From Magnetovibrio blakemorei (GTDB lineage: Bacteria > Pseudomonadota > Alphaproteobacteria > Rhodospirillales > Magnetovibrionaceae), in the NCBI RefSeq assembly GCF_001746755.1, contig NZ_MCGG01000002.1, forward strand, positions 1-64,000: a stretch of DNA of 64,000 nt, given 5' to 3'. The notes under the pieces are model-generated. The model saw only the letters and a program-made list of their open reading frames with translations. It did no database searches and was not told where the DNA came from. The translations under genes were made by a program, and so were the position numbers. Every line of letters begins with the position of its first letter. The first letter of the stretch is position 1. Shown here in pieces: positions 413 through 32,876 of the stretch.

Positions 413-1069
413 ATGCGCGGCTTATGGAAGGCATTTTGGTCACCGACTTCTCGATTTAGCGTCGGGGCCGTGATGATCGTCGGGGGTATTGCAGGGATTA
501 TTTTTTGGGGTGGCTTTAACACCTTTATGGAATACACCAACACCTTGGAATTCTGTGTCTCCTGTCACGAGATGGAACAGAAAGTCTACAAAGAATACAA
601 AAAAAGCGTGCACTATTCTAATCCGTCAGGCGTCCGCGCCATCTGTTCCGACTGCCATGTGCCGAAGGAATGGGGACCGAAGATGATCCGTAAAATCAAA
701 GCGTCCAACGAACTGCTGCACAAAGTTCTCGGCACCATCGACACGCCCGAAAAGTTTGAAGCCAAGCGCTTCCAATTGGCCAAAAATGTCTGGGCCGCGA
801 TGGAAGCTAACGATTCACACGAATGTCGCAATTGCCATGACTACGGCGCCATGCACTGGGAAAAACAGCGTCGCCGCTCAAGCGAAAAAATGCAGGTCGC
901 GTATAAAGAAAAGAAGACCTGTATTGAATGTCACAAAGGCATAGCGCATAATTTACCGGCTGAAGCCATGGCGCAGGAAGAAGATGATGTTCCAGCACGT
1001 CCAGCTGTCGATCCACAGGCTGCGCCCAAACCCCTAAAATCCATGGATAAATTCCTCGAAGAGGAATGA
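413..1069 (+). CDS. nirT: NapC/NirT-family tetraheme cytochrome c
   Basis: A 218-residue protein with one N-terminal membrane anchor (about residues 16-38) and four CxxCH heme sites with cysteines at 48/51, 78/81, 138/141 and 170/173. This is the NapC/NirT quinol dehydrogenase layout; family members carry electrons from membrane quinol to periplasmic reductases. It lies 114 nt after nirS, so delivery of electrons to NirS is the natural inference. The C-terminal 40 residues are acidic and proline-rich, beyond the heme core. The ribosome site is weak. Its last four bases touch the earliest possible start of the next frame. Confidence 0.92.
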   Translation: MRGLWKAFWSPTSRFSVGAVMIVGGIAGIIFWGGFNTFMEYTNTLEFCVSCHEMEQKVYKEYKKSVHYSNPSGVRAICSDCHVPKEWGPKMIRKIKASNELLHKVLGTIDTPEKFEAKRFQLAKNVWAAMEANDSHECRNCHDYGAMHWEKQRRRSSEKMQVAYKEKKTCIECHKGIAHNLPAEAMAQEEDDVPARPAVDPQAAPKPLKSMDKFLEEE

Positions 1070-1116
1070 ACCATAACCTGTCACATCAAATAACATTCTC
1101 ACGAAAGGCAGACGTC

Positions 1117-1800
1117 ATGAATATCACTACTCTTTCTCTACACGGTATGCGCAGTGGCATTTTAAGCGGATTTGTCGTTGCCGCAGGCCTTGTGGCGTTC
1201 GCCCCCCAGGCCCAGGCTCTTTCTCCCGAAGGTATGCTTGCGCGCGGTGGTCAGCTTTACGACTGGTACTATCAGATTACCCAAGGCGACGTTCCCAAAG
1301 ACACCCACGCCTTAATGCCAGCCGATTCCGGATCAAGCGGCAAAAAGACGTGGCGGTGCTCAGAATGTCACGGCTTCAACTATGCGGGTGATCTTGGCCT
1401 GCCCGGCATCCTCAGCGCGGCCGGTAAATCGCCTGACGACATCGTCGCCATCTTGAAAGACGCTAAACACAACTACACGTCAGCCATGTTCACGGATACG
1501 GATTTCCAATCCTTGGGGCTGTTTGTTTCCAAGGGCGTGACGGACGTCTCCAAAGTGTCCGGCGATGCGACCAAGGGTAAAGGGTACTTTGAAACCATTT
1601 GCTTGGCCTGTCATGGCATGGACGGCAAGAAGATCACCGACATGCCACCGGTGGGCGCCGTGGTCAACAAATTGCCGGATCGCTCTTTGCACCGCATTCG
1701 CTTCAGCAAACCTGGTGACAGCATGCCGGCACTGGCTGCATTGCCGTTGGATGTCGCCGTGGATGTCTGGACCTATGCCAAGACACTTCCTCAGGAATAA
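1117..1800 (+). CDS. Periplasmic diheme cytochrome c of the nir cluster
   Basis: A 227-residue protein with a signal peptide (hydrophobic about residues 14-33, ending PQAQA) and two CxxCH sites, CSECH and CLACH, in two cytochrome c domains. I chose the ATG at 1117 because a GAAAGG lies upstream and the signal peptide follows directly; an in-frame ATG at 1066 overlaps nirT. It sits in the nir cluster and probably shuttles electrons between NirT or the bc1 complex and NirS or the CuA-type NO reductase. It resembles NirC/NirM-type accessory cytochromes, but I cannot assign one symbol. Confidence 0.8.
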   Translation: MNITTLSLHGMRSGILSGFVVAAGLVAFAPQAQALSPEGMLARGGQLYDWYYQITQGDVPKDTHALMPADSGSSGKKTWRCSECHGFNYAGDLGLPGILSAAGKSPDDIVAILKDAKHNYTSAMFTDTDFQSLGLFVSKGVTDVSKVSGDATKGKGYFETICLACHGMDGKKITDMPPVGAVVNKLPDRSLHRIRFSKPGDSMPALAALPLDVAVDVWTYAKTLPQE

Positions 1801-1805
1801 ATCGA

Positions 1806-2231
1806 GTGAATCGTTCTGCTCAAATCATTTGTCTTCTTACCACCCTGGCCGTTCCCGTATTTGCGGGAACGGCTCAGGCGACAGATCCTGCTGAACGAGA
1901 AGCCATTTGTGCCAACGCTCAGGCGCGGTTCGACACAATGACAGAGCTGCCGCCCGAAGCCCCCGGCACCGTGCGTGTCTTAATGCTGAAATATACCTTC
2001 TGCCCATCACCCTTGACGGTGGCCAAAGGGACGACGGTGCGTTTCATCAATGTCGAAAAACGAACCTCTCACAGTGTCTGGTTCAAAGACGCAGGCCGCG
2101 AAGAAAGTCCACGCTTATTCCCGATTGAGTTTTGGGAAGAGACCTTCGACACCCCAGGCAAATATCCTTATCTGTGCGGTCCCCATTGGGAACGAAACGA
2201 CATGAGGGGTTTTATCGAAGTCACCGAATAG
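1806..2231 (+). CDS. Periplasmic cupredoxin-like copper protein
   Basis: A 141-residue secreted protein starting at GTG 1806 with AGGA 9 nt upstream. The signal peptide spans about residues 1-25. The C-terminal half is a plastocyanin/azurin-like fold with a plausible type 1 copper set: His89 (in TSHSVWF), Cys124, His127 and Met133. Four further cysteines upstream are unusual for a simple cupredoxin. It follows the diheme cytochrome by 5 nt, so the two are cotranscribed. A role as alternative electron carrier to NirS or to the CuA site of NorS is inferred. A terminator follows. Confidence 0.78.
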   Translation: MNRSAQIICLLTTLAVPVFAGTAQATDPAEREAICANAQARFDTMTELPPEAPGTVRVLMLKYTFCPSPLTVAKGTTVRFINVEKRTSHSVWFKDAGREESPRLFPIEFWEETFDTPGKYPYLCGPHWERNDMRGFIEVTE

Positions 2232-2650: not shown

Positions 2651-3049
2651 GTGTCTTTAATCCAATGGACCGAAACAATGAAGGTGGGCATCCCATCAGT
2701 TGATTTTGAACACAAAGCTTTGATCGATGAGATCAATGCATTGGGGGATTTGCTTGAAACGAACACTGCGGTGGATAAAATCACAGCGCGACTTGGCGCC
2801 ATTCACGCCCTGATCGAAGGACACTTTGCGCTGGAAGAAAAGATCATGCTCGACATGGGCTACAACGGCTACCATGCGCATAAAGAAGATCACAATCGAC
2901 TGTTAGAACAAATCCGCGACATCATGGACGATACCGTGGTTGCTGACCAAGTGGATATCGCCGCCACGCTTGGGGCGCGGCTCGACGCTTGGTTCTCCGT
3001 TCACCTGCGCACCTTTGACCGCAGTTTTCACACACATATCAAGTCATAA
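2651..3049 (+). CDS. Bacteriohemerythrin
   Basis: A 132-residue single-domain protein beginning at GTG. The full diiron ligand set is visible: His21, His58, Glu62, His77, His81, His118 and Asp123 in the usual four-helix spacing. Such proteins bind O2 reversibly, and some protect denitrifiers from NO or ferry oxygen. It has its own FNR-type promoter, so induction at low oxygen or by NO is expected. It converges on the membrane-protein gene at the end of the sNOR operon, with only a weak hairpin between them. Confidence 0.93.
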   Translation: MSLIQWTETMKVGIPSVDFEHKALIDEINALGDLLETNTAVDKITARLGAIHALIEGHFALEEKIMLDMGYNGYHAHKEDHNRLLEQIRDIMDDTVVADQVDIAATLGARLDAWFSVHLRTFDRSFHTHIKS

Positions 3050-3068: not shown

Positions 3069-3800
3069 TCACTTGAAATAAAACTTGTGTTCGTTTTCGT
3101 TGAAACCAACGATCAGGTTTTGCGTCGGCTTGACGTTGACGATTTGACTCAAAACATGGGTAAATGGTTTGCTGGGGTCGCCGTCATTCATACGCACCGT
3201 GATCTGGTGTTCACCAGCTGAAATAAAGAATTTCTCATAGAAGCTGGACGATCCGTCACGCCTAAACCCTGCCGGAACGGCGGTGCCTCTAAAGAGGACT
3301 TGACCATCCATATCCAGTTCCAGCTTGATCTCCGCACGTTCGCGTGAACACTTCATTTGAGAGCGCATGTTTGGTGCCAGTTCCGCCAGTTCCGACTTCG
3401 AGCGTTGCACACACGCCTCGACACGCTGTCCGGGGTGGCTCAAATTCAATTTAATCTGGGCTTCCCCTGCGCCTAAATAAGTGTAGCTTGGGTTGGTTGC
3501 AAACACACTTACGACCGTCATAAACAGCCCATATGTAACACCTTGTGCAAGCCAATATTTTGAAGGCCGGGTCGCCGCATGGTCTTCGCGCTGGAGCGTG
3601 CCCGCTTTGGATTCGCGGCGTTTGTTGATGCGCTCTTGATGTTCCGACTGCAAACGCTTGCGTTCAATTTTGGCGGTGTCTTTGTAAAACAGATTTTTTA
3701 CGCCGATGTGCCACACGAATGAAAAATAAATCGGCGCAAAAACGGCAAACGGAACGGCATAAAACCAAACGGCATTGTCACCAGTGAAAAAATCAAACAT
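3069..3800 (-). CDS. Membrane protein of the sNOR operon, unknown function
   Basis: A 243-residue protein starting at ATG 3800, preceded by GGAG at 7-nt spacing and overlapping the upstream gene by 8 nt. It shows a first hydrophobic segment (about residues 12-33), a basic cytoplasmic stretch rich in Arg/Lys, a second hydrophobic segment (about 85-100), and a 140-residue soluble domain with beta-strand character and two cysteines. I do not recognise the family. Tight coupling to the cytochrome b/ferredoxin gene suggests a structural or assembly partner. It may correspond to the unnamed orf that accompanies norSY-senC in ammonia oxidisers, which I cannot test here. Confidence 0.6.
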   Translation of the reverse strand: MFDFFTGDNAVWFYAVPFAVFAPIYFSFVWHIGVKNLFYKDTAKIERKRLQSEHQERINKRRESKAGTLQREDHAATRPSKYWLAQGVTYGLFMTVVSVFATNPSYTYLGAGEAQIKLNLSHPGQRVEACVQRSKSELAELAPNMRSQMKCSRERAEIKLELDMDGQVLFRGTAVPAGFRRDGSSSFYEKFFISAGEHQITVRMNDGDPSKPFTHVLSQIVNVKPTQNLIVGFNENEHKFYFK

Positions 3801-5337
3801 CGCCGTTCTCCGTCTCGCTGACATGATCACTTAACACCGCGAGTTCATCCTTAAACGTTTTTACGGTGTTGTTGAGCAATTGCTCATCCAATGGCGAAGC
3901 CCACAAGGTGCGAATGCGTTCGCGCGGCACGCGTTTCCTCAGATAAGGATCGCGGCGCCCTTCCAGGCGATCTTGCATCCATTGCACGCCATACCGGAAG
4001 CGACATCCGCATTCAGGACAACCCGCCACCAAAACACCTTTGGCACCCTGGCTGATCATATAATCAATGAACGACGGCGGCATATGGGCCACACACGGAA
4101 GCTTCACAGCAGCCGTACCCGCAATGTTATCGACTTTTTGTCCATGATCGCATCCAACGATGACAATCCCGTCGGTGGCATTTTGCATGGCTTGATCGAC
4201 CATTTTGCGCATGCCTTTGAGCGGCAAGTGGACCAAATCAATACCCGTAATCAATTCATCTTCCGCACGGAAGGGCGTAGACGTTGGGCACGCCCCCACA
4301 CATATGCCACACCGTGTGCACAAGGCGGCATCGACAACCGCTTCTTGTTCGTAGGGCAAACCGTCGCTGCGCGGGACCATTTCAATGGCGCCATAAGGGC
4401 AATCTTCATAACAGCGTTTACAGCCATTACATTTATCCAGCGTTACGACGGCAGGCTCATGTTGACGCATCGGCGGAAGCCACGGCATCGCCATCACAAA
4501 CAATGATCCCCCGATGGCCACAGCCCACATCACGCCCGGTCCCCAAGCGTCAAACAAGGGGTAAAACGCCATGTAGTACCAATCCAATTCCAGTTCCGTC
4601 GGAATGACATCAAGATTGGCCTTGAGATGACTGACCGCCGGATTCACCAGCGACAACACCGTCAACGCCACCAACGTGCCAATGGCCAATCCTCGGGGCG
4701 GATTGATTTTGGGTTGGCTGACGCGGATCACATGGATCCACATCATGAATAACAAAAACAACGGTCCGAAGATGTGGACAAAAACCAGCAGTGTGAAGAA
4801 ACGATCATTCAAAGACCCTTCGGCCAAGAAATTGGTCGCCACCGGTTCCCCAAATATACCCAGCAAGTCGAGCCATTCCATTGACCCGATGGCCACGTAC
4901 TGGGCCAACTGATCCCACACCAGCCAGTAGCCCGATAGGCCCGATACATACAGCAGCCAAATCACCAACACACCCGTAAACCACGCATACCAACGCACAC
5001 CGCGGTACCGATCAAACGACCATTCGCGAATCAAGTGCAGCGACATGGTCAAGACCATGCCGTCCGAAGAGTAGCGATGCAGGCTGCGCATGATACCTGC
5101 GAACCACCACTGCTCATTGGTCATATACTCAACGGATTCGTAGGCCCCATTTACAGACGTTTCAAAAAACACGTACACGATGATGCCGGTGATCGCAGCG
5201 ACAAAGTACAAGTAAAATGCCACCGTCCCCAGTTGACGCATGGGGTTCCATTCCGGACCAAAGGCTCGGTCGTACTCTTTGTCTGCGCGCAGAAAAAAGT
5301 TTTGAATAAAGATGCGAATTGAGGTCAAGACGTTCAC
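3793..5337 (-). CDS. Cytochrome b - 2[4Fe-4S] ferredoxin - MvhD-like fusion protein
   Basis: A 514-residue protein starting at GTG. Residues 1-250 form a cytochrome b N-domain with the diheme ligand pattern His87/His101 and His188/His202, 14 residues apart in each helix. More membrane segments follow to about 285. Residues 303-313 and 340-350 are two CxxCxxCxxxC [4Fe-4S] motifs. Residues 390-480 resemble the MvhD/FlpD iron-sulfur domain of heterodisulfide reductase-linked hydrogenases, with Cys396, Cys415, Cys440, Cys443 and Cys445. The architecture joins a quinone-facing heme module to a cytoplasmic Fe-S relay. Between senC and a membrane protein in the sNOR operon it probably moves electrons between a soluble donor or acceptor and the quinone pool. 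Partner and direction are unknown. Confidence 0.82.
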   Translation of the reverse strand: MNVLTSIRIFIQNFFLRADKEYDRAFGPEWNPMRQLGTVAFYLYFVAAITGIIVYVFFETSVNGAYESVEYMTNEQWWFAGIMRSLHRYSSDGMVLTMSLHLIREWSFDRYRGVRWYAWFTGVLVIWLLYVSGLSGYWLVWDQLAQYVAIGSMEWLDLLGIFGEPVATNFLAEGSLNDRFFTLLVFVHIFGPLFLLFMMWIHVIRVSQPKINPPRGLAIGTLVALTVLSLVNPAVSHLKANLDVIPTELELDWYYMAFYPLFDAWGPGVMWAVAIGGSLFVMAMPWLPPMRQHEPAVVTLDKCNGCKRCYEDCPYGAIEMVPRSDGLPYEQEAVVDAALCTRCGICVGACPTSTPFRAEDELITGIDLVHLPLKGMRKMVDQAMQNATDGIVIVGCDHGQKVDNIAGTAAVKLPCVAHMPPSFIDYMISQGAKGVLVAGCPECGCRFRYGVQWMQDRLEGRRDPYLRKRVPRERIRTLWASPLDEQLLNNTVKTFKDELAVLSDHVSETENGDV

Positions 5338-5381: not shown

Positions 5382-6290
5382 TTAAAGGCTTGGGCCTGGA
5401 GATGGTTTTTGTTCCCGCAAACGCAATTGATTGCGTTTGTGGTTTTGCCATAGCCATTTCAACAAGAACGTCATCATGCCTAAGATGACCGTTGCCCCGA
5501 CCAATATGCGGAAAAAAATGGAATAGCGAAAACGGTATTGGTCCGCGGTCGGGTCGTAGATGGTGCAAAACAACCGTACCTTGTTGATCAGATCGCTAAG
5601 GCTGGAAAATGGCGACGCCGTGCCAAAAACCAAACTTTTTAACGGCTCGACAAAATGTGGAGCCTCAAACTGCTCGCCGTAAATCTGGCGAAACACAACC
5701 CCGTTTTTGTCCAAAATCGTGGTCTGCGTTAAATGGTCAAATCCTTTGGCGGATTCGAAAAATTGAAATCCTAAGTCTTCGCTTAACGCTGTTACGGCCA
5801 ATAAATCTCCACTGAGAAATTTCCAGTGGTCATTAATCTTTACACCGTACTTGCGCGCAAAACTTTTCATTTGCACAGGGTTGTCCGCCCCAATGTCAAA
5901 GCCTATGGTTACGATCGAATAGCTATCGTCGCCCAGTGCGTCGCGGGCCATTTCATCAACGTTTTGCAACGTCGCCGTAATCACCGGACAAACATCCGCG
6001 CAACTGGAATAGATCAACGAAATCACCAGTGGCTTACCGCGAAAATCTGAAAGAGAAATGCGATTGCCTTGGGTGTCGCGAAAACTGTAATCACCGATGG
6101 CCCGACCAATGGCCGCCTGAGACAGCGCCAATGCTTTTTCTTCATCCAAGGCACCGGTGTACGAATTGGAAATCGTGCCGGGCGCTTGCTGGCCTGCGTG
6201 AGCGTCAGATGACACCGCCACGACCGCTGCACAGAGCGTCGCGGCGAGCATTATTGTCATCATTCGCTTTTTCATGATTTTTTTGTTCAT
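5382..6290 (-). CDS. senC: SCO1/SenC copper chaperone
   Basis: A 302-residue protein with an N-terminal signal or anchor, a thioredoxin-like SCO domain bearing CxxxC at residues 97-101 (CADVC) and the copper-binding His186, and a C-terminal transmembrane helix at about 262-285, which is not typical of short SCO proteins. SCO proteins deliver copper to the CuA centre of subunit II, matching norS upstream. I chose ATG 6290; 6305 is also open. The gene is separated from norY by hairpins and lies 44 nt before the cytochrome b fusion gene. Confidence 0.88.
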   Translation of the reverse strand: MNKKIMKKRMMTIMLAATLCAAVVAVSSDAHAGQQAPGTISNSYTGALDEEKALALSQAAIGRAIGDYSFRDTQGNRISLSDFRGKPLVISLIYSSCADVCPVITATLQNVDEMARDALGDDSYSIVTIGFDIGADNPVQMKSFARKYGVKINDHWKFLSGDLLAVTALSEDLGFQFFESAKGFDHLTQTTILDKNGVVFRQIYGEQFEAPHFVEPLKSLVFGTASPFSSLSDLINKVRLFCTIYDPTADQYRFRYSIFFRILVGATVILGMMTFLLKWLWQNHKRNQLRLREQKPSPGPSL

Positions 6291-6317
6291 TCGGCTCACC
6301 CACAAAGCCTTGAGTGT

Positions 6318-6423: not shown

Positions 6424-8109
6424 TTAGCTCATACCCCAAACGCTCGCCAAGTATTTCCAGTTGACGAAGTAGTAAAGGACAAAAGCTGTTAGGAACACCA
6501 GAGCCAACACGAAGGTTCCAGGAACCTCCAAGGTGCTGGCACTGCCGTATTCAGTTGCGGCACCACCGATCGGTGCGGCCGGAGCTTCTTCGGCTGCAGG
6601 CGCAGGCACTTTAGCCTTACCAAACAAAATCGTGCTGACCATGTTGAGGATAAAGATACCCCCACCAATGCCGCCGATTACACCCGAAATCCCTGCCAAG
6701 CCCATCATCATATAGGCGGCGGCGGGGAACTCATGCACCATCATGGCGTCGGCGAACGAGATATCCCAGTGACGACGAGGAACACCAAGCGTACCCGCAC
6801 CCATCATGAAGATTGATGCCAGACCCATACCGAGACCGAACAGGTACGGTTGCCATTTGGCAAGACCCGGGAACACCAGTTCTTTCTGCCACAACACCGG
6901 AACCAACCAGTATGCCATCGCCATGAAGGCCAAGGTCGTACCGACCACGACCGTGCCATGGAAGTGACCCGGAACATACAAGGTGTTGTGAATGATGATG
7001 TTGAGCTGTTCTGTGCCCATCATAACGCCCGTGATACCGCCCAAGAAGCCGAACAACACGACCGACAGAGCAAATCCAGCAAATACCGGATTACCCCAAG
7101 GCGCTTTGCGGAGCCACTCGAACAGACCGCGGTTGTAGCCTTTTTTGCGCAACGCGGCTTCGACCGCACCCGGAACCGTCAGGCCATGAAGCATGGAACC
7201 CAAAACAGCCAAGTACAGAGCGTAAGACGTGTTGAAGATTTTCCATTCGGAACTGATGCCCGGATCGACCAAGATGTGGTGAGCGGATGCCAGTTGCAAG
7301 AACAGAATGTAGAACAAAAAGGCGGTGCGGCTGACTTTTTCGGACAGCGGTTTGGCACCGAACAAGATGGCCGCAATAGCGTACCAGCAGGCAATCTGCG
7401 CTGCCACGTTGATCTGCTGAGACGAGTGTCCCAAGCCCCACCAGATGACACGATACATCAACGTATCGATGTTGCCGATAAAACCCAACGACCAGAAGAA
7501 TGTTGGGATCAAAATCACTGCGCCCGCCAAGATGGTGAACACGGCAATAATCGCCGCCGTCATCGCACCAAACGTGACCAGCGGGATTGAACCCTCATAG
7601 GTCTTATCGCGTTTGGCGATATACAAGGTCGAGAAAAAGACCACGCAGCCCATCAACGCACCCACGGCAAACAAAATCACGCCGAGGTAAAAATGCGGTG
7701 CTGCCATCATCGGAACGTAAGACGTGAACATCACGCTGCTTTCGCCCTGCAACACTGCAACGTTGGTGATCAAAGCGCCGACCAACATAAGCGTATACTG
7801 AACCCATCCAAGCCAAGGCGCGGCCAGTCTGGTTTTCAACAATATTGACGACGTGAAATACAGCAAGGCCATCTCGAAAAAGATAATCCAAACCAACAAC
7901 ACGTCTAAACCGTGCGCCGTCAGCGCCAGGTAAAATAAATCAGCGTCCAATAAGTGAACCGCAGGCCAACGCGTCAGCGCGACCAAGATGCCGAACAAGC
8001 CGCCGACGAGCAAGAAGACAACGGCGGTAACCGCGTTCCACTTGATCAATTTGTCAGCCGCAAGATCGATTGCGAACCCGGTGTCCGGGCAAGTTCTAAA
8101 TTGTGCCAT
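6424..8109 (-). CDS. norY: Heme-copper subunit I, predicted sNOR-type NO reductase
   Basis: A 561-residue, about 14-helix heme-copper catalytic subunit. I took ATG 8109 (GAGG upstream); a GTG at 8124 overlaps norS as GTGA. Low-spin heme ligands are His66 and His384, the high-spin ligand is His382, and CuB ligands are His228, His277 and His278. In oxygen reductases of this type helix VI reads GHPxVY, with the Tyr cross-linked to a CuB His. Here it reads GHSSQQ, so Gln232 replaces that Tyr. Loss of the Tyr with three CuB histidines kept, next to CuA subunit II and senC, matches the norSY-senC (sNOR) group of NO reductases. Its proposed role is reduction of NO to N2O with electrons from cytochrome c or cupredoxin. 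Confidence 0.8.
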   Translation of the reverse strand: MAQFRTCPDTGFAIDLAADKLIKWNAVTAVVFLLVGGLFGILVALTRWPAVHLLDADLFYLALTAHGLDVLLVWIIFFEMALLYFTSSILLKTRLAAPWLGWVQYTLMLVGALITNVAVLQGESSVMFTSYVPMMAAPHFYLGVILFAVGALMGCVVFFSTLYIAKRDKTYEGSIPLVTFGAMTAAIIAVFTILAGAVILIPTFFWSLGFIGNIDTLMYRVIWWGLGHSSQQINVAAQIACWYAIAAILFGAKPLSEKVSRTAFLFYILFLQLASAHHILVDPGISSEWKIFNTSYALYLAVLGSMLHGLTVPGAVEAALRKKGYNRGLFEWLRKAPWGNPVFAGFALSVVLFGFLGGITGVMMGTEQLNIIIHNTLYVPGHFHGTVVVGTTLAFMAMAYWLVPVLWQKELVFPGLAKWQPYLFGLGMGLASIFMMGAGTLGVPRRHWDISFADAMMVHEFPAAAYMMMGLAGISGVIGGIGGGIFILNMVSTILFGKAKVPAPAAEEAPAAPIGGAATEYGSASTLEVPGTFVLALVFLTAFVLYYFVNWKYLASVWGMS

Positions 8110-8120
8110 GACCCGTTTCC

Positions 8121-8669
8121 TCACTTATCGACCACATGAATTTTGCCGACCATCGTATGATGGCCAATACCGCAAAATTCGTTACAAACAACACTGAACT
8201 CACCAGAGCTCGTGGGCGTTACCGTCAACACCATGTCGTATCCAGGGTGGATCTCTAAATTGATGTTTTCCGGCTGTAAGGAAAAGCCATGCATCCAGTC
8301 CATGGATGACAAGTGCAAGCGATAGGATTGTCCCTTTTCCAATTCCAGGACCGGCCACCACTCCCACAAACGACCAAGCATATAAACGTCGCTGCCTGCA
8401 GGAGGACGAACCACAGGCACGCCTGTGTCACCTTCTTCGCCAACTTTATATTTCGCAGCCATCTCTTCAGTACGTTTTGCAAACACTTCAGGACGAATGC
8501 GATACGCTTCGTTGGAAAGGTTCTGGCTACCGTTAATGTGCCAATACGGCATCATAAAGAACATCACCAGCGCCCAAATCAGCGCAATAAAAATCCATAA
8601 AACTTCCGATTTTTCAACCGGTTCGTTCCACCAAACCCGTTTTGTTGGGGGAAAAATAGCCATGCTCAT
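8121..8669 (-). CDS. norS: CuA-containing subunit II of the sNOR-type reductase
   Basis: A 182-residue protein with one transmembrane helix (about residues 22-41) and a periplasmic CuA cupredoxin domain. All CuA ligands are visible: His127, Cys162, Glu164 (backbone), Cys166, His170 and Met173. An AAGGGGGGC ribosome site precedes ATG 8669. CuA accepts electrons from a soluble cytochrome c or cupredoxin, both encoded in the neighbouring nir segment. It overlaps or nearly touches norY, indicating translational coupling. It is shorter than canonical CoxB, as in ba3-type enzymes. Confidence 0.87.
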   Translation of the reverse strand: MSMAIFPPTKRVWWNEPVEKSEVLWIFIALIWALVMFFMMPYWHINGSQNLSNEAYRIRPEVFAKRTEEMAAKYKVGEEGDTGVPVVRPPAGSDVYMLGRLWEWWPVLELEKGQSYRLHLSSMDWMHGFSLQPENINLEIHPGYDMVLTVTPTSSGEFSVVCNEFCGIGHHTMVGKIHVVDK

Positions 8670-8676
8670 GCCCCCC

Positions 8677-8844
8677 TTACGGTGCTACGGGGATGGAGAC
8701 GATCTCCATCACACCCCAAATGATATAAATAACCGTCGGCATTGCGACACCGATAAACAGAAGAATAAATGGAGAATCCAATAACTTCTGCATAAAGGGT
8801 ATCGACCCCCCGTCGCCCGCATGTGTGCTGTCATGCTCTGACAT
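8677..8844 (-). CDS. Single-helix subunit, cytochrome oxidase 2A-like
   Basis: A 55-residue protein with one transmembrane helix (about residues 26-48) after a short polar N-terminus. The start at ATG 8844 has GGAGG at 7 nt; an upstream in-frame codon at 8859 is less likely. It is the first gene of the operon, 7 nt before norS. Small subunit IIa of ba3-type oxidases has the same size and place, and supplies the helix that subunit II lacks. Assignment rests on context and topology, not on sequence identity. Confidence 0.7.
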   Translation of the reverse strand: MSEHDSTHAGDGGSIPFMQKLLDSPFILLFIGVAMPTVIYIIWGVMEIVSIPVAP

Positions 8845-8962: not shown

Positions 8963-8976
8963 TTGACCAAGATCAA
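8963..8976. promoter_or_regulatory. FNR/Dnr box in the divergent sNOR-HHE region
   Basis: TTGACCAAGATCAA matches TTGAT-N4-ATCAA with one change. It lies 119 nt before the first sNOR operon ATG and 128 nt before the HHE gene. For the leftward promoter a TATTAA (8937-8932) sits near the -10 position expected for activation from -41.5; the rightward spacing fits less well. The Crp/Fnr gene next door is a likely source of the regulator. Confidence 0.72.
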
Positions 8977-9103
8977 ATTGTCAAAACCTGTGTACGATTG
9001 ACGGTCGTCAATGCATATACCTATCCGCGCGCTCAATATTTCTATCAAGCGACTTGTGGGCAGGCTTGAGCTTTAAAATCCTTCATTAATTAGGGGACAG
9101 TGC

Positions 9104-9685
9104 ATGCCACCCAACGCCGATCAGACGACACTGGATATGTTCGGTATCTTGGTTGAACACATTCCCGATAATTTGTTGCTGGAGCCGCTCGAATATATTT
9201 TTGCCGACCACTGTCGGCAGAAAGATTTATGTCGTGCGTTGAAGGTTTTAGCCAAGCAAAGTCAGGCAAGCGACGTGGCCACGGAAACGGCCACGACCAT
9301 TTTGCAGTGCTTGCGCCACGATCTGGCCCTGCACATTGCGGATGAAGAGCAAGACCTGTTCCCCCGCTTGCGTGAACGTGCCATACCGAGTGATAAAATC
9401 GAAGACACCTTGCGGTTGCTGGGTTCGGAGCATATGCGCGATCGCGAACTGGTTGAAATCGTTATGGTGGGCCTCCAGAAAATCGCTGAAGTCAAACCTG
9501 TCAGCGACATTCAAGCGTTCCGCACAGCGGCAGAGATGCTGTCGGAAATCCATCTATCCCACTTAAATTGGGAAAACACCGTCATTTTGGAATTGGCACG
9601 TCTGCGCCTAAATGCCGATGATCAACGCGAAATGGCCAAAAGCATGGCAGCGCGGCGTGGTATCAATTTACCCCAACTTGACTAA
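9104..9685 (+). CDS. Hemerythrin-like HHE domain protein
   Basis: A 193-residue soluble protein with the HHE cation-binding pattern: His in FADHCRQ, then HIADEE..LFPRL, SEHMRDRE and HLSHLNWE, a probable non-heme diiron site. Members of this group are linked to NO/oxygen sensing or iron-sulfur repair in denitrifiers. It is divergent from the sNOR operon with a shared FNR-type box, and its end overlaps the end of the convergent Crp/Fnr gene by 4 nt. A GGGGAC ribosome site precedes the ATG. An NO-protection role is inferred. Confidence 0.82.
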   Translation: MPPNADQTTLDMFGILVEHIPDNLLLEPLEYIFADHCRQKDLCRALKVLAKQSQASDVATETATTILQCLRHDLALHIADEEQDLFPRLRERAIPSDKIEDTLRLLGSEHMRDRELVEIVMVGLQKIAEVKPVSDIQAFRTAAEMLSEIHLSHLNWENTVILELARLRLNADDQREMAKSMAARRGINLPQLD

Positions 9686-10419
9686 CAGCCCATCGATTGG
9701 GTCGTAATCATCGCGCGTAACGCGTCGAGATCTTTGATCACCACGTCGTGGCCTGCGCTTTGAACGCCAACGGTTTTGAGTTTTGCCAGGGCACGCGAAA
9801 ATGTTTCCGGCTGCATGCCTAGGCGTGCCGCAATCAAAGACTTGTCCAGCGGCAACGTGATGGTCGCCGTTCCGTTGGTGGAATTGGATAAACTGAGAAG
9901 AAAGTCCGCCAAGCGTTCCGTGGAGGACATGCTGCACATTTGATGCAGTTTGGTGACGTTCTGACGCATTTGCCGCGACATGGACCCCAGCATATTGAAG
10001 GTAAAGTTCATGTTTTCATGGAGTTGGCGCACCAAGCCTTCTGCATGAACCACCAACAGCCGGACATCGGTGATGGCAACCGCGCTGACGGGGAAGACGC
10101 TGCTGTCAAATATGGCGGCTTCGGCAAAACTTTCCCCAGGCGACGAAACGGAAATCACCACTTCCTGACCGCTTTCCGTCAATCTGAACAGTTTGATCCA
10201 ACCATCCATAACAACAAAAAAACGATCTGCAGGGTCACCTTCCATAAACAATGTGGTGTGATCGGGATAGCGGCGAATGGAACTGGTCGCCAACAACTTG
10301 CGCAAGTCGCTGGGCACCATCCCAGAAAATAAATACACCTGACCTAAGCGGCGAATGTCATCACGGGTTATCCCCGTGCGCAGCTCAAAATCATCAACTT
10401 CTTTGGACAACTGCCCCAT
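9682..10419 (-). CDS. Crp/Fnr-family regulator, Dnr/NnrR-like
   Basis: A 245-residue regulator with an N-terminal cyclic-nucleotide-binding-type beta barrel (about residues 30-140), a dimer helix, and a C-terminal Crp-type winged helix with recognition region RLGMQPETFSRALAKLK. There is no FNR-like N-terminal cysteine cluster, so it is of the Dnr/NnrR class rather than an [4Fe-4S] oxygen sensor. I took ATG 10419, preceded by AAGGGG; an open extension to 10485 lacks similarity. Its place beside nitrogen-oxide genes with two FNR-family boxes makes NO-responsive activation of them the likely role. Confidence 0.83.
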   Translation of the reverse strand: MGQLSKEVDDFELRTGITRDDIRRLGQVYLFSGMVPSDLRKLLATSSIRRYPDHTTLFMEGDPADRFFVVMDGWIKLFRLTESGQEVVISVSSPGESFAEAAIFDSSVFPVSAVAITDVRLLVVHAEGLVRQLHENMNFTFNMLGSMSRQMRQNVTKLHQMCSMSSTERLADFLLSLSNSTNGTATITLPLDKSLIAARLGMQPETFSRALAKLKTVGVQSAGHDVVIKDLDALRAMITTQSMGC

Positions 10420-10569
10420 GCCCGTTCCCCTTTGCCCACAGCCGTTACGGCAGCACAATTGGCCGCCGAAAATACTTCCCTGCAAAAAGTTACACTATTC
10501 AAATCCAAAAGACGAGTGTTTCAAATTGGCATAAAGCCATAAAATAAATATGGTTTTATCAAGAGGCCA

Positions 10570-13500
10570 TCACTGCGCCGCATCAACCTTTTCATTTGCA
10601 CTGGTGTCCGTTTCACCTTTCGGTTCATTTTTCACCGTCGCCAGCGCTTCGAATACTTGCCGACGATGGCGCAGTTCTTCTTCCAGTTTTTCCACCAACA
10701 TGGCGTAACGTTCTGGATTATTGCGTTGAACCCGACGGAAACGGTTTTCCAACTCCAACAAATCGGTGACCGGCCGGGTGGGCGCTTTGCTGTCCAGTTG
10801 CAGAGGCGCTTTGCCCTCCGTCAGCAACCGTGGATCATACCGATACAGCGGCCAGTAGCCACTTTCCACGGCGATGGCCTGGTGTTCCAGGCTGTGTTCC
10901 AATTCGTAACCATGCTCTCCGCACGGAGAGTTGGCGATGATCAACGAAGGGCCGTCAAATTGTTCCGCTTCCTGGAACGCCTTGATGGTTTGCGCGTCCT
11001 TGGCCCCCAGCGCCACGGACGCCACATACACATGGCCATAGGTGAGCGCCATCAGCCCCAAGTCCTTTTTTGGCAAGGCTTTACCCTCACTGGCAAACTT
11101 CGCCGCCGCCGTGAGCGGTGTGGCCTTGGATTGCTGACCGCCGGTGTTGGAATAGACTTCGGTGTCCATCACCAAGATGTTGACGTTGGCGCCCGACGCC
11201 AACACGTGATCCACGCCGCCAAAACCGATGTCATAGGCCCAGCCGTCACCGCCCAAAATCCACAGGGTCTTTTTCACCAAGTGATCCGCAATCACGCTTA
11301 AGCGGGCCGCCAGTTCGCCATCTATGGTGGCGAGCTTTTCTTTTAACGTTTTCACTCGCTCGCGTTGTGCCTTCACACCGGCCTCGGTGGATTGATCGGC
11401 ACTCAACAGCGCATCGACAAACCCCCCATCGGACAAATCCCCGCGCAAGTTTTCCACCAACTCCATCGCAATGGCGTGGTGTTGATCCAGACCCAAACGC
11501 AGCCCCAAACCAAACTCGGCATTGTCTTCAAACAAGGAATTCGCCCACGCCGGACCGCGGCCGTTGGCATCGCAGGCATAGGGCGTGGTCGGCAGGTTGC
11601 CACCGTAAATCGATGAACACCCGGTGGCGTTGGCGATCACGGCGCGATCGCCATACAACTGGGTCAGCAACTTGATGTAAGGTGTTTCCCCACACCCCGA
11701 ACAGGCCCCGGAAAATTCAAACAGCGGCTCGGCGAACTGAGTCATTTTGACATTACCGCGCATCAAGGTGCGGTCGATTTCGGGCAAGTCGAGGAAAAAC
11801 TTAAAGTTTTCCCGTTCTTGAACACGCAAGGGCGGCTGCGCCTGCATAACCAACGACAGACGCTCCGGATCTTTTTTGTCTTTACCGGGACACACCATCA
11901 CGCACAGTTTGCACCCTGTGCAGTCTTCGGGGGCCACTTGAACCGAATACTTCGCCCCTTCACCAAACTCTTTGCCCTTATAGTCCATGGCCTTAAACGT
12001 CTGAGGCGCACCCGCGATGGCACCACCGTCATACGCCTTCACCCGAATGGCGGCGTGCGGGCAAACCAGGGCACACTTGTTGCACTGGATGCACAGCTCT
12101 TCTATCCAGGTTGGAATTTCCGCCGCCAGATTGCGCTTTTCCCATTGCGCCGTATCGGAAGGCCACGTGCCGTCCACAGGGAACGCGCTGACGGGCAACA
12201 AATCGCCTTTGCCCGCCAACATTTTAGCGGTGACGTTTTTCACAAAATCCGGGGCATCCGCAGACACGATGGGGGGAATGTCGAAAGCTGAACTGACCGT
12301 GTTCGGCACATCGACTTGTTCCATGTGCGCTAACGCCGCGTCCACCACCGCGTTGTTCATCTCCACAACTTTGCGTCCCTTTGAGCCATAGCTTTTGGCA
12401 ATAGCGTCTTTGATATAGCCGATGGATTTGTCATAATCCAAAAAATCGGACAGGGCGAAGAAACACACCATCATCACCGTATTGATGCGCTTGCCCATGC
12501 CGGCATCGGCGGCGATTTTGCGCGCATTGATGACGTAAAACTTCAGCTCTTTTTCAACGATCAGCTTTTGTACCGAACGGGGCAAGTTGTCCCACACATC
12601 ATCCTTGCCATAGGGCGCGTTCAACAAAAACGTTCCGCCTTGGGTGGCGTGGCTCAAGATGTCGAGGGTGTCGAGGAAATGAAACTGGTGGCACGCCAAA
12701 AACTCGGCTTCGTGAATCAAGTATGAAGAGCGAATCGGATCTGTTGCAAATCGCAGATGAGAAATGGTCACCGCACCGGCTTTTTTGGAATCGTAAACAA
12801 AATAGCCCTGCACATAATTGTCGGTGTTGTCGGCAATGATCTTGATGGCGTTTTTGTTTGCGCCGACCGTACCGTCTGAGCCCAAACCAAAAAACATCGC
12901 CCGGTGCATGGTGCCCGGCTCATAACAATTTCCGCACTCGTCCCAATCCAAAGACAAGCCCGATACATCGTCATAAATACCGATGGTGAAGGTTGGCTTG
13001 GGCTTGGGTTTGGACAATTCGTCAAACACCGCTTTGGCCATGGATGCGGTAAAGTCTTTAGACGACAAACCAAACCGTCCACCGATCACTTTTATGTTAC
13101 GTCCCGCCCGGTTCAGCGCTGCAACAACATCCAAATACAAAGGCTCGCCAATCGCACCGCTTTCTTTGGTCCGTTCCAAAACCGCAATCGATTTTACGGA
13201 CGCGGGCAACGCATCGACAAACCGTTCAACACTGAACGGGCGGTACAAACGCACTTGCAAAACGCCAACTTTTTCAGCGCCGCTGTTCAAGACGTCGACG
13301 GTTTCATGCACGGTTTCACCCGCCGAACCCATGACGATCACCACACGTTCAGCATCCGGTGCACCATGATATTCATACAGGGCATATGAACGCCCGGTGA
13401 GTTTTGCGAACTTTTCAAACGCATCAGAGACAAACCCTGGAACCGCGTCGTGATAAAGATTGCGCGCTTCTTGCATCTGGAAAAAGGTATCAGGATTTTG

Positions 13501-14160
13501 GCTGGTGCCGCGCACGATGGGATTGTCCGGTGTCATGCCCCGTTCGCGGTGCGCCTGAATCAAATCGGCGGGCAGCATCTCTTTCAGCACATCATCTTCA
13601 AGGTATTCAATTTTTGACACTTCGTGTGAGGTGCGAAATCCATCAAAAAAGTGCATGAACGGAACCCGCGATGCATAGGTCGCCGCCTGAGCGACACAGG
13701 CAAAGTCCTGGGCCTCTTGCACCGTGGCGCTCGACAACATGGCGACACCGGTTTGGCGACACGCCATCACATCGGAATGATCGCAGAAAATCGACAGCGC
13801 ATGGGTGGCAATGGTGCGCGCCGCAACATGCATGCAAAAGGGCAACAGCTCCCCCGCAATCTTGTACAGATTGGGGATCATCAACAACAAGCCTTGCGAC
13901 GACGTAAAGGTCGTCGTCAAAGCGCCCGACTGCAATGCACCGTGCACCGCGCCCGCAGCCCCGGCTTCGGATTGCATTTCCACCACATGCGGAATGCTGC
14001 CCCAAACGTTACGCCGCTTTTGAGCCGACCAAGCTTCGGACAGCTCTCCCATGGTTGATGAGGGCGTTATCGGATAAATGGCGATCACTTCGTTCATACG
14101 ATGGGCAACAGAGGCGACGGCTTCGTTACCATCAACGGCAACCATGCGTTTTTTTGTCAT
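10570..14160 (-). CDS. nifJ: Pyruvate:ferredoxin (flavodoxin) oxidoreductase
   Basis: A 1196-residue single-chain enzyme of normal family length. It contains the N-terminal pyruvate-binding domain (YPITPSSTMGE), the gamma domain, two [4Fe-4S] motifs (CIQCNKCALVCP and CTGCKLCVMVCPG), a CxxC near the TPP domain (CSGCGETPY) and the TPP/Mg motif GDGWAYDIG..NILVMDTEVYSNTGGQQSKAT. It oxidises pyruvate with CoA to acetyl-CoA and CO2, reducing ferredoxin or flavodoxin, usually under anoxia or for nitrogenase. GGAG lies 8 nt before the ATG. It stands alone on the minus strand, 150 nt upstream of the Dnr-like gene. Confidence 0.97.
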   Translation of the reverse strand: MTKKRMVAVDGNEAVASVAHRMNEVIAIYPITPSSTMGELSEAWSAQKRRNVWGSIPHVVEMQSEAGAAGAVHGALQSGALTTTFTSSQGLLLMIPNLYKIAGELLPFCMHVAARTIATHALSIFCDHSDVMACRQTGVAMLSSATVQEAQDFACVAQAATYASRVPFMHFFDGFRTSHEVSKIEYLEDDVLKEMLPADLIQAHRERGMTPDNPIVRGTSQNPDTFFQMQEARNLYHDAVPGFVSDAFEKFAKLTGRSYALYEYHGAPDAERVVIVMGSAGETVHETVDVLNSGAEKVGVLQVRLYRPFSVERFVDALPASVKSIAVLERTKESGAIGEPLYLDVVAALNRAGRNIKVIGGRFGLSSKDFTASMAKAVFDELSKPKPKPTFTIGIYDDVSGLSLDWDECGNCYEPGTMHRAMFFGLGSDGTVGANKNAIKIIADNTDNYVQGYFVYDSKKAGAVTISHLRFATDPIRSSYLIHEAEFLACHQFHFLDTLDILSHATQGGTFLLNAPYGKDDVWDNLPRSVQKLIVEKELKFYVINARKIAADAGMGKRINTVMMVCFFALSDFLDYDKSIGYIKDAIAKSYGSKGRKVVEMNNAVVDAALAHMEQVDVPNTVSSAFDIPPIVSADAPDFVKNVTAKMLAGKGDLLPVSAFPVDGTWPSDTAQWEKRNLAAEIPTWIEELCIQCNKCALVCPHAAIRVKAYDGGAIAGAPQTFKAMDYKGKEFGEGAKYSVQVAPEDCTGCKLCVMVCPGKDKKDPERLSLVMQAQPPLRVQERENFKFFLDLPEIDRTLMRGNVKMTQFAEPLFEFSGACSGCGETPYIKLLTQLYGDRAVIANATGCSSIYGGNLPTTPYACDANGRGPAWANSLFEDNAEFGLGLRLGLDQHHAIAMELVENLRGDLSDGGFVDALLSADQSTEAGVKAQRERVKTLKEKLATIDGELAARLSVIADHLVKKTLWILGGDGWAYDIGFGGVDHVLASGANVNILVMDTEVYSNTGGQQSKATPLTAAAKFASEGKALPKKDLGLMALTYGHVYVASVALGAKDAQTIKAFQEAEQFDGPSLIIANSPCGEHGYELEHSLEHQAIAVESGYWPLYRYDPRLLTEGKAPLQLDSKAPTRPVTDLLELENRFRRVQRNNPERYAMLVEKLEEELRHRRQVFEALATVKNEPKGETDTSANEKVDAAQ

Positions 14161-30506: not shown

Positions 30507-32876
30507 ATGTCATCCAAGTTAAATGATAAACTAAGATTTAAGAACTTATCTTTAATACTTCTAAATAAGAAATTTTGGTTTACTCATTTTCTCATTGTTA
30601 CAATTATAAGCGTTGCCGGATTAATTTATCTTGGCCAGGCGACGTATTCCGGTGCACCGCCACTTGTTCATTTCAAGTCATCCACAGGCGAAACCGTCAT
30701 TTCCCGGCAGTTGATCAACGCAGGCGAACGGGTGTTTCACCTTCGGGGTTTGATGAGTTACGGTTCATTTTGGGGAGATGGGGCGGAACGCGGTCCGGAC
30801 TTCACCGCCGATGCCCTGCACCGCATGACCGTTTCCATGAGATCGTTTTATGCCGGTGAACTGAAGGCTCAAGGAACGACACAAGACCTCGGTCAATACG
30901 ACCAAGACGCCATCGCCGCCAGGGTCCGGCGCGAAGTTCACACCAACACCTGGGATGAAAGCTCCGACACAATCCTCTTGAACGAAGCGCAGATATTTGC
31001 CCTCGAAGAATTGAACCGTCACTACACCCGCATGTTCACAGATCCACACTACCCCGAGCTGTTCCAAATCGGATACATCACCGAGCCAAAAGACATCCAG
31101 GCCTTAACCGCGTTTTTCTATTGGGGGGCCTGGGTAGCCGCAGCCAACCGCCCCGGGGAGGATTACAGCTACACCCACAATTGGCCTTACGATCCAGACG
31201 CGGGCAACACCCCGACAACCGCAACCTTTATCTGGAGCGCCATGTCCATTTTGGGTCTGTTTCTGGGCATTGGCATCGTCTTGTACGTGTACGGTCAGAT
31301 GAAATCGATGCACTATGATCCGTTCAACGGCAACACCGGAACGTCATTGACGACACACGATCTTGAAAACAATTACATTCGTCCAACCCAAAGGGGGACG
31401 TATAAATTTTTTGCCCTGGCGATTGTGTTGTTTGCGCTTCAAGTTCTCGCCGGCATCATCGGGGCGACGGACTTCGTGCGACCGTTTGGCCTGTTTCTCG
31501 GCGACATCATCCCGTTCACCGTTGCGCGCAGCTACCATACTTTATTTCAGATCTTTTGGTTCTTCATGTGCTGGGTTGGCTACACCATCTTTTTCCTGCC
31601 TCGCCTCTCCGAAGCGCCGCGCGGTCAGACCTTCCTGATCAACCTGTTGTTCACGTTGTGCATCATTGTCGGCGCGGGTGCATTGGTGGGTATTTATCTA
31701 GGTCAAACCGGCATATTGACCGGCGACATGGCCTATTGGCTGGGCAGTCAAGGTTGGGAGTTCATGGAATTTGGACGTCTCTTCCAGATCATCTTGCTGG
31801 TCGCCTTCACGCTATGGATTTTCATCATCTATCGCGGTGTGAAGCCGTGGCTGACGCGCAAAAATATGTGGTCCATTCCCGCTTGGCTTCTCTATGGCAG
31901 CGGCGTGATGGTGTTCTTTTTGTTCTTTGGCCTATTGGTTACCCCGGAAACGAACTTTGCCGTCGCCGATTACTGGCGGTGGATGGTCGTGCATATGTGG
32001 GTTGAGGTCACGTTCGAAGTTTTCACGACCGTGATTGTCGCGTACATCCTTGTGCAGATGAATTTGATCACGCGCGCGATGGCGGAACGGGTGGTGTTTC
32101 TGGCTGTGATGCTTTTCTTCATCACCGCCACCGTCGGCATTGCGCACAATTTTTACTGGATTGCCAAGCCCACCGGCGTCATCGCCTTTGGCAGCGTGTT
32201 TTCAACCCTTCAGGTGTTGCCCCTGCTGTTGCTGACCTTGGACGCCTGGCGCATGCGCCAGGAAAAAACTCGCGCCAACACGTTGCGCGATCAAGGCAAA
32301 CAGACCATTGTGATGGATGAAGTGTGGCTGTTTATTCTCGCCGTTAATTTTTGGAATGTTTTTGGCGCGGGCGTGTTTGGCTCCGTCATCAACCTTCCCA
32401 TTGTGAATTACTATGAGCACGCGACCTACCTCACAGGCAACCATGCCCACGCCGCCATGTTTGGCGTCAAAGGCAACATTGCCCTGGCGGGGTTGCTGTT
32501 TTGTTGCCAGCACATATTTGAAAAATCCAGCTGGAACGCAAAACTGATCCGTCGTTCGTTTTGGTCGTTAAACATCGGCGTCGCCATGATGATGTTTCTG
32601 GACCTTTTTCCGGTGGGCGTATACCAGTTGGTTGATGTCCTTCAAAACGGTCTCTGGCATGCGCGGTCTTACGAGATTGTTCAGGGCGACGTATTTAAGA
32701 CCCTGACCTACTTCCGCTCTCTCGGCGGCGCCGTGTTTGTCATCGGCGGCGTCATTCCGCTGGTCTGGTTCATTTTGTCCCGCGGCCGCCGACTGGTGCG
32801 CGAAGTGCAAATCGAGCCCAATTCCCACACAGACTATGAAAAAGATTGGGCCGCACAAGAAGACGCGCCACACTGA
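30507..32876 (+). CDS. norZ: Quinol-dependent nitric oxide reductase
   Basis: A 789-residue fused NorB-type enzyme: an N-terminal helix and a periplasmic NorC-like domain without a heme c motif (about residues 40-240), then about 13 helices. The catalytic helix shows His496 and Glu500 (HMWVE) with Glu504; the helix X histidines lie in TGNHAHAAMFG. It reduces NO to N2O with electrons from quinol, giving a second, CuA-independent NO reductase in this window. The first 40 codons are markedly AT-rich compared with the rest. It has its own promoter region and a terminator, so it is monocistronic. Confidence 0.96.
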   Translation: MSSKLNDKLRFKNLSLILLNKKFWFTHFLIVTIISVAGLIYLGQATYSGAPPLVHFKSSTGETVISRQLINAGERVFHLRGLMSYGSFWGDGAERGPDFTADALHRMTVSMRSFYAGELKAQGTTQDLGQYDQDAIAARVRREVHTNTWDESSDTILLNEAQIFALEELNRHYTRMFTDPHYPELFQIGYITEPKDIQALTAFFYWGAWVAAANRPGEDYSYTHNWPYDPDAGNTPTTATFIWSAMSILGLFLGIGIVLYVYGQMKSMHYDPFNGNTGTSLTTHDLENNYIRPTQRGTYKFFALAIVLFALQVLAGIIGATDFVRPFGLFLGDIIPFTVARSYHTLFQIFWFFMCWVGYTIFFLPRLSEAPRGQTFLINLLFTLCIIVGAGALVGIYLGQTGILTGDMAYWLGSQGWEFMEFGRLFQIILLVAFTLWIFIIYRGVKPWLTRKNMWSIPAWLLYGSGVMVFFLFFGLLVTPETNFAVADYWRWMVVHMWVEVTFEVFTTVIVAYILVQMNLITRAMAERVVFLAVMLFFITATVGIAHNFYWIAKPTGVIAFGSVFSTLQVLPLLLLTLDAWRMRQEKTRANTLRDQGKQTIVMDEVWLFILAVNFWNVFGAGVFGSVINLPIVNYYEHATYLTGNHAHAAMFGVKGNIALAGLLFCCQHIFEKSSWNAKLIRRSFWSLNIGVAMMMFLDLFPVGVYQLVDVLQNGLWHARSYEIVQGDVFKTLTYFRSLGGAVFVIGGVIPLVWFILSRGRRLVREVQIEPNSHTDYEKDWAAQEDAPH

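Follow-up and report, generated by a model that had tools for sequence, protein, structure and literature searches.

Several described systems resemble parts of the locus analysed here. The cytochromes b of Rieske/cytochrome b complexes (bc1 and b6f) have a fold with two H-x13-H pairs, a PEWY quinol-oxidation motif on the periplasmic (P) side and a W-D-Q-like cd region, and they are accompanied by a Rieske protein and by cytochrome c1 or f. In Kuenenia, two such complexes (Kuste4569-4574 and Kustd1480-1485), made of separate subunits that include Rieske and multihaem c proteins, join cytochrome b to an NAD(P)-linked Fe-S/flavin module in the cytoplasm, near periplasmic nitrogen-oxide chemistry, and electron bifurcation by these NAD(P) oxidoreductase-carrying complexes has been proposed (PMC12954380). 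MvhD/FlpD proteins and the C-terminus of HdrA2, associated with HdrA, HdrBC and hydrogenase, display two Fer4 clusters followed by an FlpD domain. B-family haem-copper NO reductases with a CuA subunit and an SCO protein are encoded by the norSY-senC-orf1 cluster of ammonia oxidisers (sNOR; PMC4940428) and by the CuANOR clusters of Bacillus (PMC3475470), the latter also specifying a small transmembrane protein. In the available portions of two further papers, eNOR is defined by a Gln at the position of the active-site Tyr, occupied by Asn in sNOR (PMC8756737), and the eNOR or ba3-a1 subtype, which has NO reductase activity and a CuA subunit II, is described as widespread among new marine alphaproteobacterial clades (PMC8879329). 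Among the NO reductases recognised recently, eNOR produces N2O in marine and other bacteria; those same portions do not describe its metabolic wiring or mention an electron-input cytochrome b. The two-gene unit considered below, CBF-DS, apparently encodes a conserved and so far undescribed electron-transfer complex of eNOR/NirS denitrifiers. A literature search whose reach did not include the primary eNOR study returned no description of the domain architecture of CBF.

The window (the whole stretch analysed, 64,000 nucleotides at the start of contig NZ_MCGG01000002.1 of Magnetovibrio blakemorei) carries the CBF gene at positions 3793..5337, exactly where the earlier note had placed it; the frame lies on the minus strand, a point left unstated in that note, and runs from a GTG start codon at 5337 to 3793. 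The 514-amino-acid product is a fusion of cytochrome b, a 2[4Fe-4S] ferredoxin and an FlpD/MvhD domain. All Pfam matches score over the curated cut-offs: Cytochrome_B at residues 34-206 (E 5e-16), two Fer4 stretches at 297-353 (9e-12) and FlpD/MvhD (PF02662) at 409-500 (3e-15; 57 bits). The cytochrome b part (residues ~34-286; 4480..5238, minus strand) comprises helices A-F of the bc1 type, as judged from Pfam (PF00033), Foldseek and hhalign; the two [4Fe-4S] motifs, predicted to be cytoplasmic, occupy 4279..4449 (minus), and the FlpD/MvhD-like [2Fe-2S] domain (residues ~389-500) extends over 3838..4173 (minus). The presumptive haem ligands H87/H101 and H188/H202, the eight ferredoxin cysteines (C303/306/309/313 and C340/343/346/350) and the four FlpD cysteines (C396, C415, C440 and C445) are invariant in 45 CBF homologues with at least 39% identity. 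This invariance argues that the domain make-up did not arise by chance and, together with the Pfam matches, bears out the claim of the earlier note that a single chain unites four bis-His ligands, two [4Fe-4S] motifs and an MvhD-like domain. The chain appears to be one continuous product, since full-length matches were found in 37 of 100 relatives and AlphaFold2 modelled it, as a single chain, confidently throughout (pLDDT 90.7, pTM 0.87). The Foldseek superposition with bc1 cytochrome b extended across about 280-320 columns, exceeding the four-helix Pfam match; from sequence and model, two bis-His b haems are predicted. Among NCBIfam models, the one for the ExtP b-type cytochrome (NF040969) fitted the cytochrome b half best, at 88.7 bits against a cut-off of 290, and that model spans some 205 positions, has no Fe-S fusion and belongs to a different operon.

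The presence of an FlpD domain, likened in the earlier note to MvhD, normally a partner of heterodisulfide reductase or hydrogenase, raised the possibility that CBF is a component of such a system of the Mvh kind. The C-terminal half of CBF does resemble the HdrA2 C-terminus, with the same order of two Fer4 clusters and FlpD and with the Cys ligands kept. The score, however, is 75 bits, far under the 1100-bit cut-off, and this was the best match to the HdrA2 model in the M. blakemorei genome, where HdrA was not found and where the only FlpD domain is that of CBF itself. Unlike MvhD and HdrA2, CBF is fused to a membrane cytochrome b and comes without HdrA, HdrBC or hydrogenase, and such genes were not seen in the neighbourhoods. 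A Hdr/hydrogenase partnership was therefore rejected as barely credible.

Alignment of CBF with bc1 cytochrome b by hhalign in global mode (286 columns, probability 99.6%) set 'PTELELDWYYMAFY' against 'PPHILPEWYFLPFY', so that LDWY, residues 251-254 of CBF (4576..4587, minus strand), falls on the PEWY quinol-oxidation (Qo/QP) motif. The CBF variant has DW where PEWY has EW. Residues D252 and W253 are invariant in the 45 CBF sequences, as are the equivalent D236 and W237 in 16 relatives of a second type (see below). By homology, the DW motif would constitute a P-side quinol site; the chain would then re-cross the membrane, which would place the Fe-S domains in the cytoplasm. CBF shares with bc1 and b6f the fold, the paired H-x13-H ligands and a W-D-Q-like cd region, but ends after helix F, continues into the predicted cytoplasmic Fe-S domains and has no cytochrome c1 or f. 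Neither does it have a Rieske partner: the Rieske motif was absent from all 132 loci scanned, whereas the same pattern recovered the Rieske protein in 7 of 7 bc1 loci.

The protein accompanying CBF is DS, encoded at 3069..3800 on the minus strand, and present as a single copy in the M. blakemorei genome. Here it consists of two N-terminal helices and a beta-sandwich predicted to be periplasmic; shorter homologues have one transmembrane helix. Its cysteines C130 and C151 form an invariant pair. DS matched no Pfam family, and comparison with solved PDB folds gave nothing at E < 1e-3; on these grounds its identification as a Rieske protein (no Rieske fold was detected), FixG_C or another known domain was discarded. 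A scan of 84,980 species genomes yielded 309 stretches encoding CBF relatives, and neighbourhoods were counted in the best 80 of these, from Alpha- and Gammaproteobacteria and mostly metagenome-assembled genomes (MAGs), with all neighbourhoods inside Pseudomonadota. A DS gene was present in 78 of 78 of these loci, and DS also lies beside most of the cytochrome b copies read. DS is the obligate partner of the CBF cytochrome b.

The conserved gene order around CBF-DS is: small transmembrane protein, eNOR subunits II and I, (cyoE), SCO, CBF, DS, hemerythrin. In M. blakemorei, subunit I (6424..8124, minus strand) is a B-family haem-copper protein with the signature GHSSQQIN. It aligned best to the ba3 enzyme of T. 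thermophilus, with Q229 at the position of the cross-linked Tyr237. This Gln was invariant in 15 subunit I sequences; of 99 subunit I ORFs scanned, 88 contained the pattern GHxxQQIN and 11 did not fit it. Immediately upstream lies the gene for subunit II (8121..8669, minus), with the CuA motif CNEFCGIGHHTM, a motif kept in 94 of 94 eNOR subunits II. Since subunit I carries the Gln signature of eNOR and is paired with a CuA subunit, the operon is to be read as eNOR and not as norSY; the sNOR/norSY label of the earlier note, which would call for Asn, was abandoned. Judged from these residues, the adjacent enzyme falls among the B-family haem-copper NO reductases, as one of the eNOR type. Compared with the norSY and Bacillus CuANOR clusters, the present one has CBF-DS in place of orf1/cbaD. 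The cbaA gene annotated as a 'ba3 oxidase' in Ca. Accumulibacter (PMC6446978) might be a misannotated eNOR and constitutes a lead.

SCO1/SenC, a copper chaperone, is encoded at 5382..6305 (minus strand) and recurs in 72 of 72 loci among the best 80. The first gene of the operon (8677..8844, minus) specifies a 55-amino-acid protein with a single transmembrane segment, which has homologues in 93 loci and can be compared with cbaC, the small subunit in the Bacillus clusters. A bacteriohemerythrin gene, convergent here (2651..3049, plus), adjoins CBF-DS in 70 of 78 homologous loci. Upstream of the operon (8963..9011) are two exact FNR/DNR-type boxes, TTGACCAAGATCAA at 8963-8976 and TTGACGGTCGTCAA at 8998-9011, against an expectation of 0.0006 exact matches in 260 bp; the Crp/Fnr-family regulator encoded at 9682..10485 (minus) likely controls them. 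A promoter/terminator scan was uninformative. A pyruvate:ferredoxin oxidoreductase adjoins the operon (10570-14160, minus); it has no homologue in the other loci and was dismissed as a dedicated donor to CBF. Elsewhere in the window, genes for a NapC/NirT-type tetrahaem cytochrome, a cytochrome c and a cupredoxin are found at 413-2231 (plus), homologues of which accompany the eNOR operon at some other loci, and a second match to the haem-copper family lies at 31401-32735 (plus), in a 794-amino-acid frame that is qNOR-like by size. Six COX1-family genes were counted in the M. blakemorei genome, which eNOR may accordingly share with several NO reductases.

Of 250 genomes sampled from one proteobacterial order, 19 encode relatives of the CBF cytochrome b with a different cytoplasmic module. 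In these proteins, the Fer4-FlpD portion is replaced by Fer2, FAD_binding_6 and NAD_binding_1 domains, that is, by a [2Fe-2S]/flavin NAD(P)H reductase (FNR type), comparable with the NAD(P) oxidoreductase module of the Kuenenia complexes. The CBF and FNR types form a single clade apart from bc1 (support 100/100), with internal relationships poorly resolved. The FNR type lies in or beside the eNOR operon in most loci read (L177-L187 and L189), and most operons contain both types; loci L176 and L190 have the FNR type only, located between SCO and DS where CBF would be. Genes for such fusions, for example L136 10639-12615 and others in L176-L190, belong to eNOR operons or lie near nirJ/nirN. Modules of the FNR type react with NAD(P)H and normally pass electrons outward from it. 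On its cytoplasmic side, this cytochrome b would therefore deal with an NAD(P)H-linked pool, and the module swap is our best evidence on the cytoplasmic half, pointing to electron exchange with such a pool. By extension, the Fer4-FlpD version would act likewise, its donor being a ferredoxin or flavoprotein.

The explanation that we favour, with a probability of about 0.45 and thus tentatively, is that CBF-DS is a Rieske-free cytochrome b conduit between a cytoplasmic low-potential pool and P-side quinone, serving periplasmic denitrification by eNOR and/or NirS. In the FNR version, NAD(P)H would donate through the fused flavin reductase; in M. blakemorei, a ferredoxin or flavoprotein docking on the FlpD domain would be the donor. 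Electrons might then travel from the FlpD [2Fe-2S] centre through the two [4Fe-4S] clusters to haem bN and haem bP, and from there to P-side quinone or, through that site, to DS or the CuA centre of eNOR. The reduction of NAD(P)+ by quinol requires an energy source; this fact and the outward flow typical of FNR modules make passage from the cytoplasm to P-side quinone and on to N-oxide reduction the simplest reading. The earlier note had suggested coupling of a cytoplasmic reductant to quinone; the topology that this implies is supported by the P-side motif and by the NAD(P)H-reductase swap, while the direction of electron flow is what we infer from the arguments just given. The conduit is also consistent with the bc1-type fold, the invariant DW residues in both types, the linkage with eNOR set out below, the FNR/DNR boxes, the lack of Rieske ORFs and a genome devoid of HdrA or any other FlpD protein. 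Some observations fit it less well. Having retained CuA, eNOR would be fed by periplasmic carriers unaided, and no donor to the FlpD domain was found. Furthermore, P-side quinone reduction driven from the cytoplasm would dissipate proton-motive force, which would be odd for a respiratory module; as no use would be made of that force, the role may be protective (against NO) or regulatory rather than energy-conserving.

The same topology would permit a half-loop like that of NarI, in which P-side oxidation of quinol would supply a cytoplasmic acceptor of high potential, for instance hemerythrin or NO. The frequent adjacency of the hemerythrin gene agrees with this idea. The FNR-type swap, however, connects the cytoplasmic end with NAD(P)H, which is too negative to be the acceptor, and the nirS-linked copies read had no hemerythrin match next to them, making a half-loop highly improbable.

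The linkage with a respiratory NO reductase assumed in the earlier note proved tight. Both eNOR subunit genes were present in 56 of the 57 loci with enough upstream sequence (among the best 80 of 309), and each CBF neighbourhood read contained eNOR and/or nirS denitrification genes, so that no homologue detached from respiratory genes was encountered. Among 399 genomes of Pseudomonadota, 29 had both CBF and eNOR subunit I, 5 had only CBF, 1 had only eNOR and 364 had neither. The loci of the eNOR-only genome and of one CBF-only genome end at contig breaks; of the other four CBF-only genomes, three are 69-77% complete and the fourth (96%) is in about 730 contigs. CBF is thus a near-obligate genomic partner of eNOR, itself a rare type of NO reductase. 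In one Defluviimonas, the set is carried on a plasmid. CBF-DS can be separated from SCO/cyoE. Six genomes have eNOR-(cyoE)-SCO as one unit and CBF-DS as another, mostly near nirS, and CBF-DS forms a separate unit beside nirS in some gammaproteobacteria.

This separability bears on the proposal that CBF-DS is a maturation or repair reductase, drawing on electrons from the cytoplasm for the periplasmic reduction of Cu(II) or thiols while the copper and haem centres of eNOR are assembled or repaired, in the manner of CcoG or of the PepSY_TM protein CrpH. Such a role would account for the position of CBF-DS directly after cyoE and SCO and for the invariant Cys pair of DS, and haem-mediated periplasmic metal reductases supporting haem-copper enzymes are known or have been proposed (PMC13038864). 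CcoG/FixG and CrpH are putative reductases of this sort, and CcoG likewise links Fe-S clusters to a membrane part. On the other hand, CBF and DS are built on another membrane scaffold, with neither CcoG/FixG nor PepSY_TM domains in Pfam; the product of nirS, beside which CBF-DS is found, contains no copper; the conserved quinone site would be unnecessary; and the two cytochromes b with different donors kept by some operons exceed the needs of an assembly factor. Maturation appears unlikely, and the narrower notion of an SCO-only assembly factor is weakened by the copies of CBF-DS near nirS without SCO/cyoE. The transmembrane conduit accommodates these nirS-linked units, with the reservation that co-location with nirS and eNOR could come from shared regulation and not from electron exchange.

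The main rival of the conduit is quinone bifurcation. Here quinol would be oxidised on the P side, one electron going downhill to eNOR or NirS, with DS or CuA replacing the Rieske protein, and the other uphill via bP, bN and the Fe-S/flavin centres to ferredoxin or NAD(P)+. The conserved quinol-site motif, the ferredoxin or NAD(P)H character of the cytoplasmic modules and the restriction of the neighbours to periplasmic N-oxide reductases are all in line with such a mechanism, for which the proposal made for the anammox complexes provides a direct precedent (PMC12954380). Yet the Kuenenia complexes have a Rieske protein, missing from every locus scanned here, and DS lacks the fold; by our own estimate, too little energy would be available from ubiquinone and an acceptor at the level of CuA to reach NAD(P)+. 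Genomes with CBF show no enrichment of RuBisCO (4 of 34, against 108 of 365), a result that led us to discard reverse electron flow for the Calvin cycle. We regard bifurcation as possible but doubtful, and as somewhat more questionable still the broader formulation in which CBF-DS, with interchangeable modules, bifurcates (or confurcates, an option raised in the earlier note) by coupling NO/nitrite reduction outside to the making (or use) of reduced ferredoxin/NAD(P)H inside. If it were correct, denitrification would possess an energy-coupling site of a new kind.

With the conduit, CBF probably links an internal reductant pool to NO removal, the reaction from which the greenhouse gas N2O arises. 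Such a partner of eNOR, with NAD(P)H- and ferredoxin-type inputs that can be exchanged, would connect denitrification directly to reductant in the cytoplasm, or allow low-potential electrons to be generated from NO, with consequences for energy yield and N2O output. CBF, its FNR-type relative and DS can serve as genomic markers, and the natural module-swap series lends itself to tests. Two features of the wider family are worth recording. Tandem copies of CBF occur in one family of small-genome MAGs (L132-L135). In many non-alphaproteobacterial operons, a second, shorter haem-copper subunit I of about 450 amino acids, possibly another NO reductase, follows DS (L136 7123-8481, L176-L191, L134 and L137).
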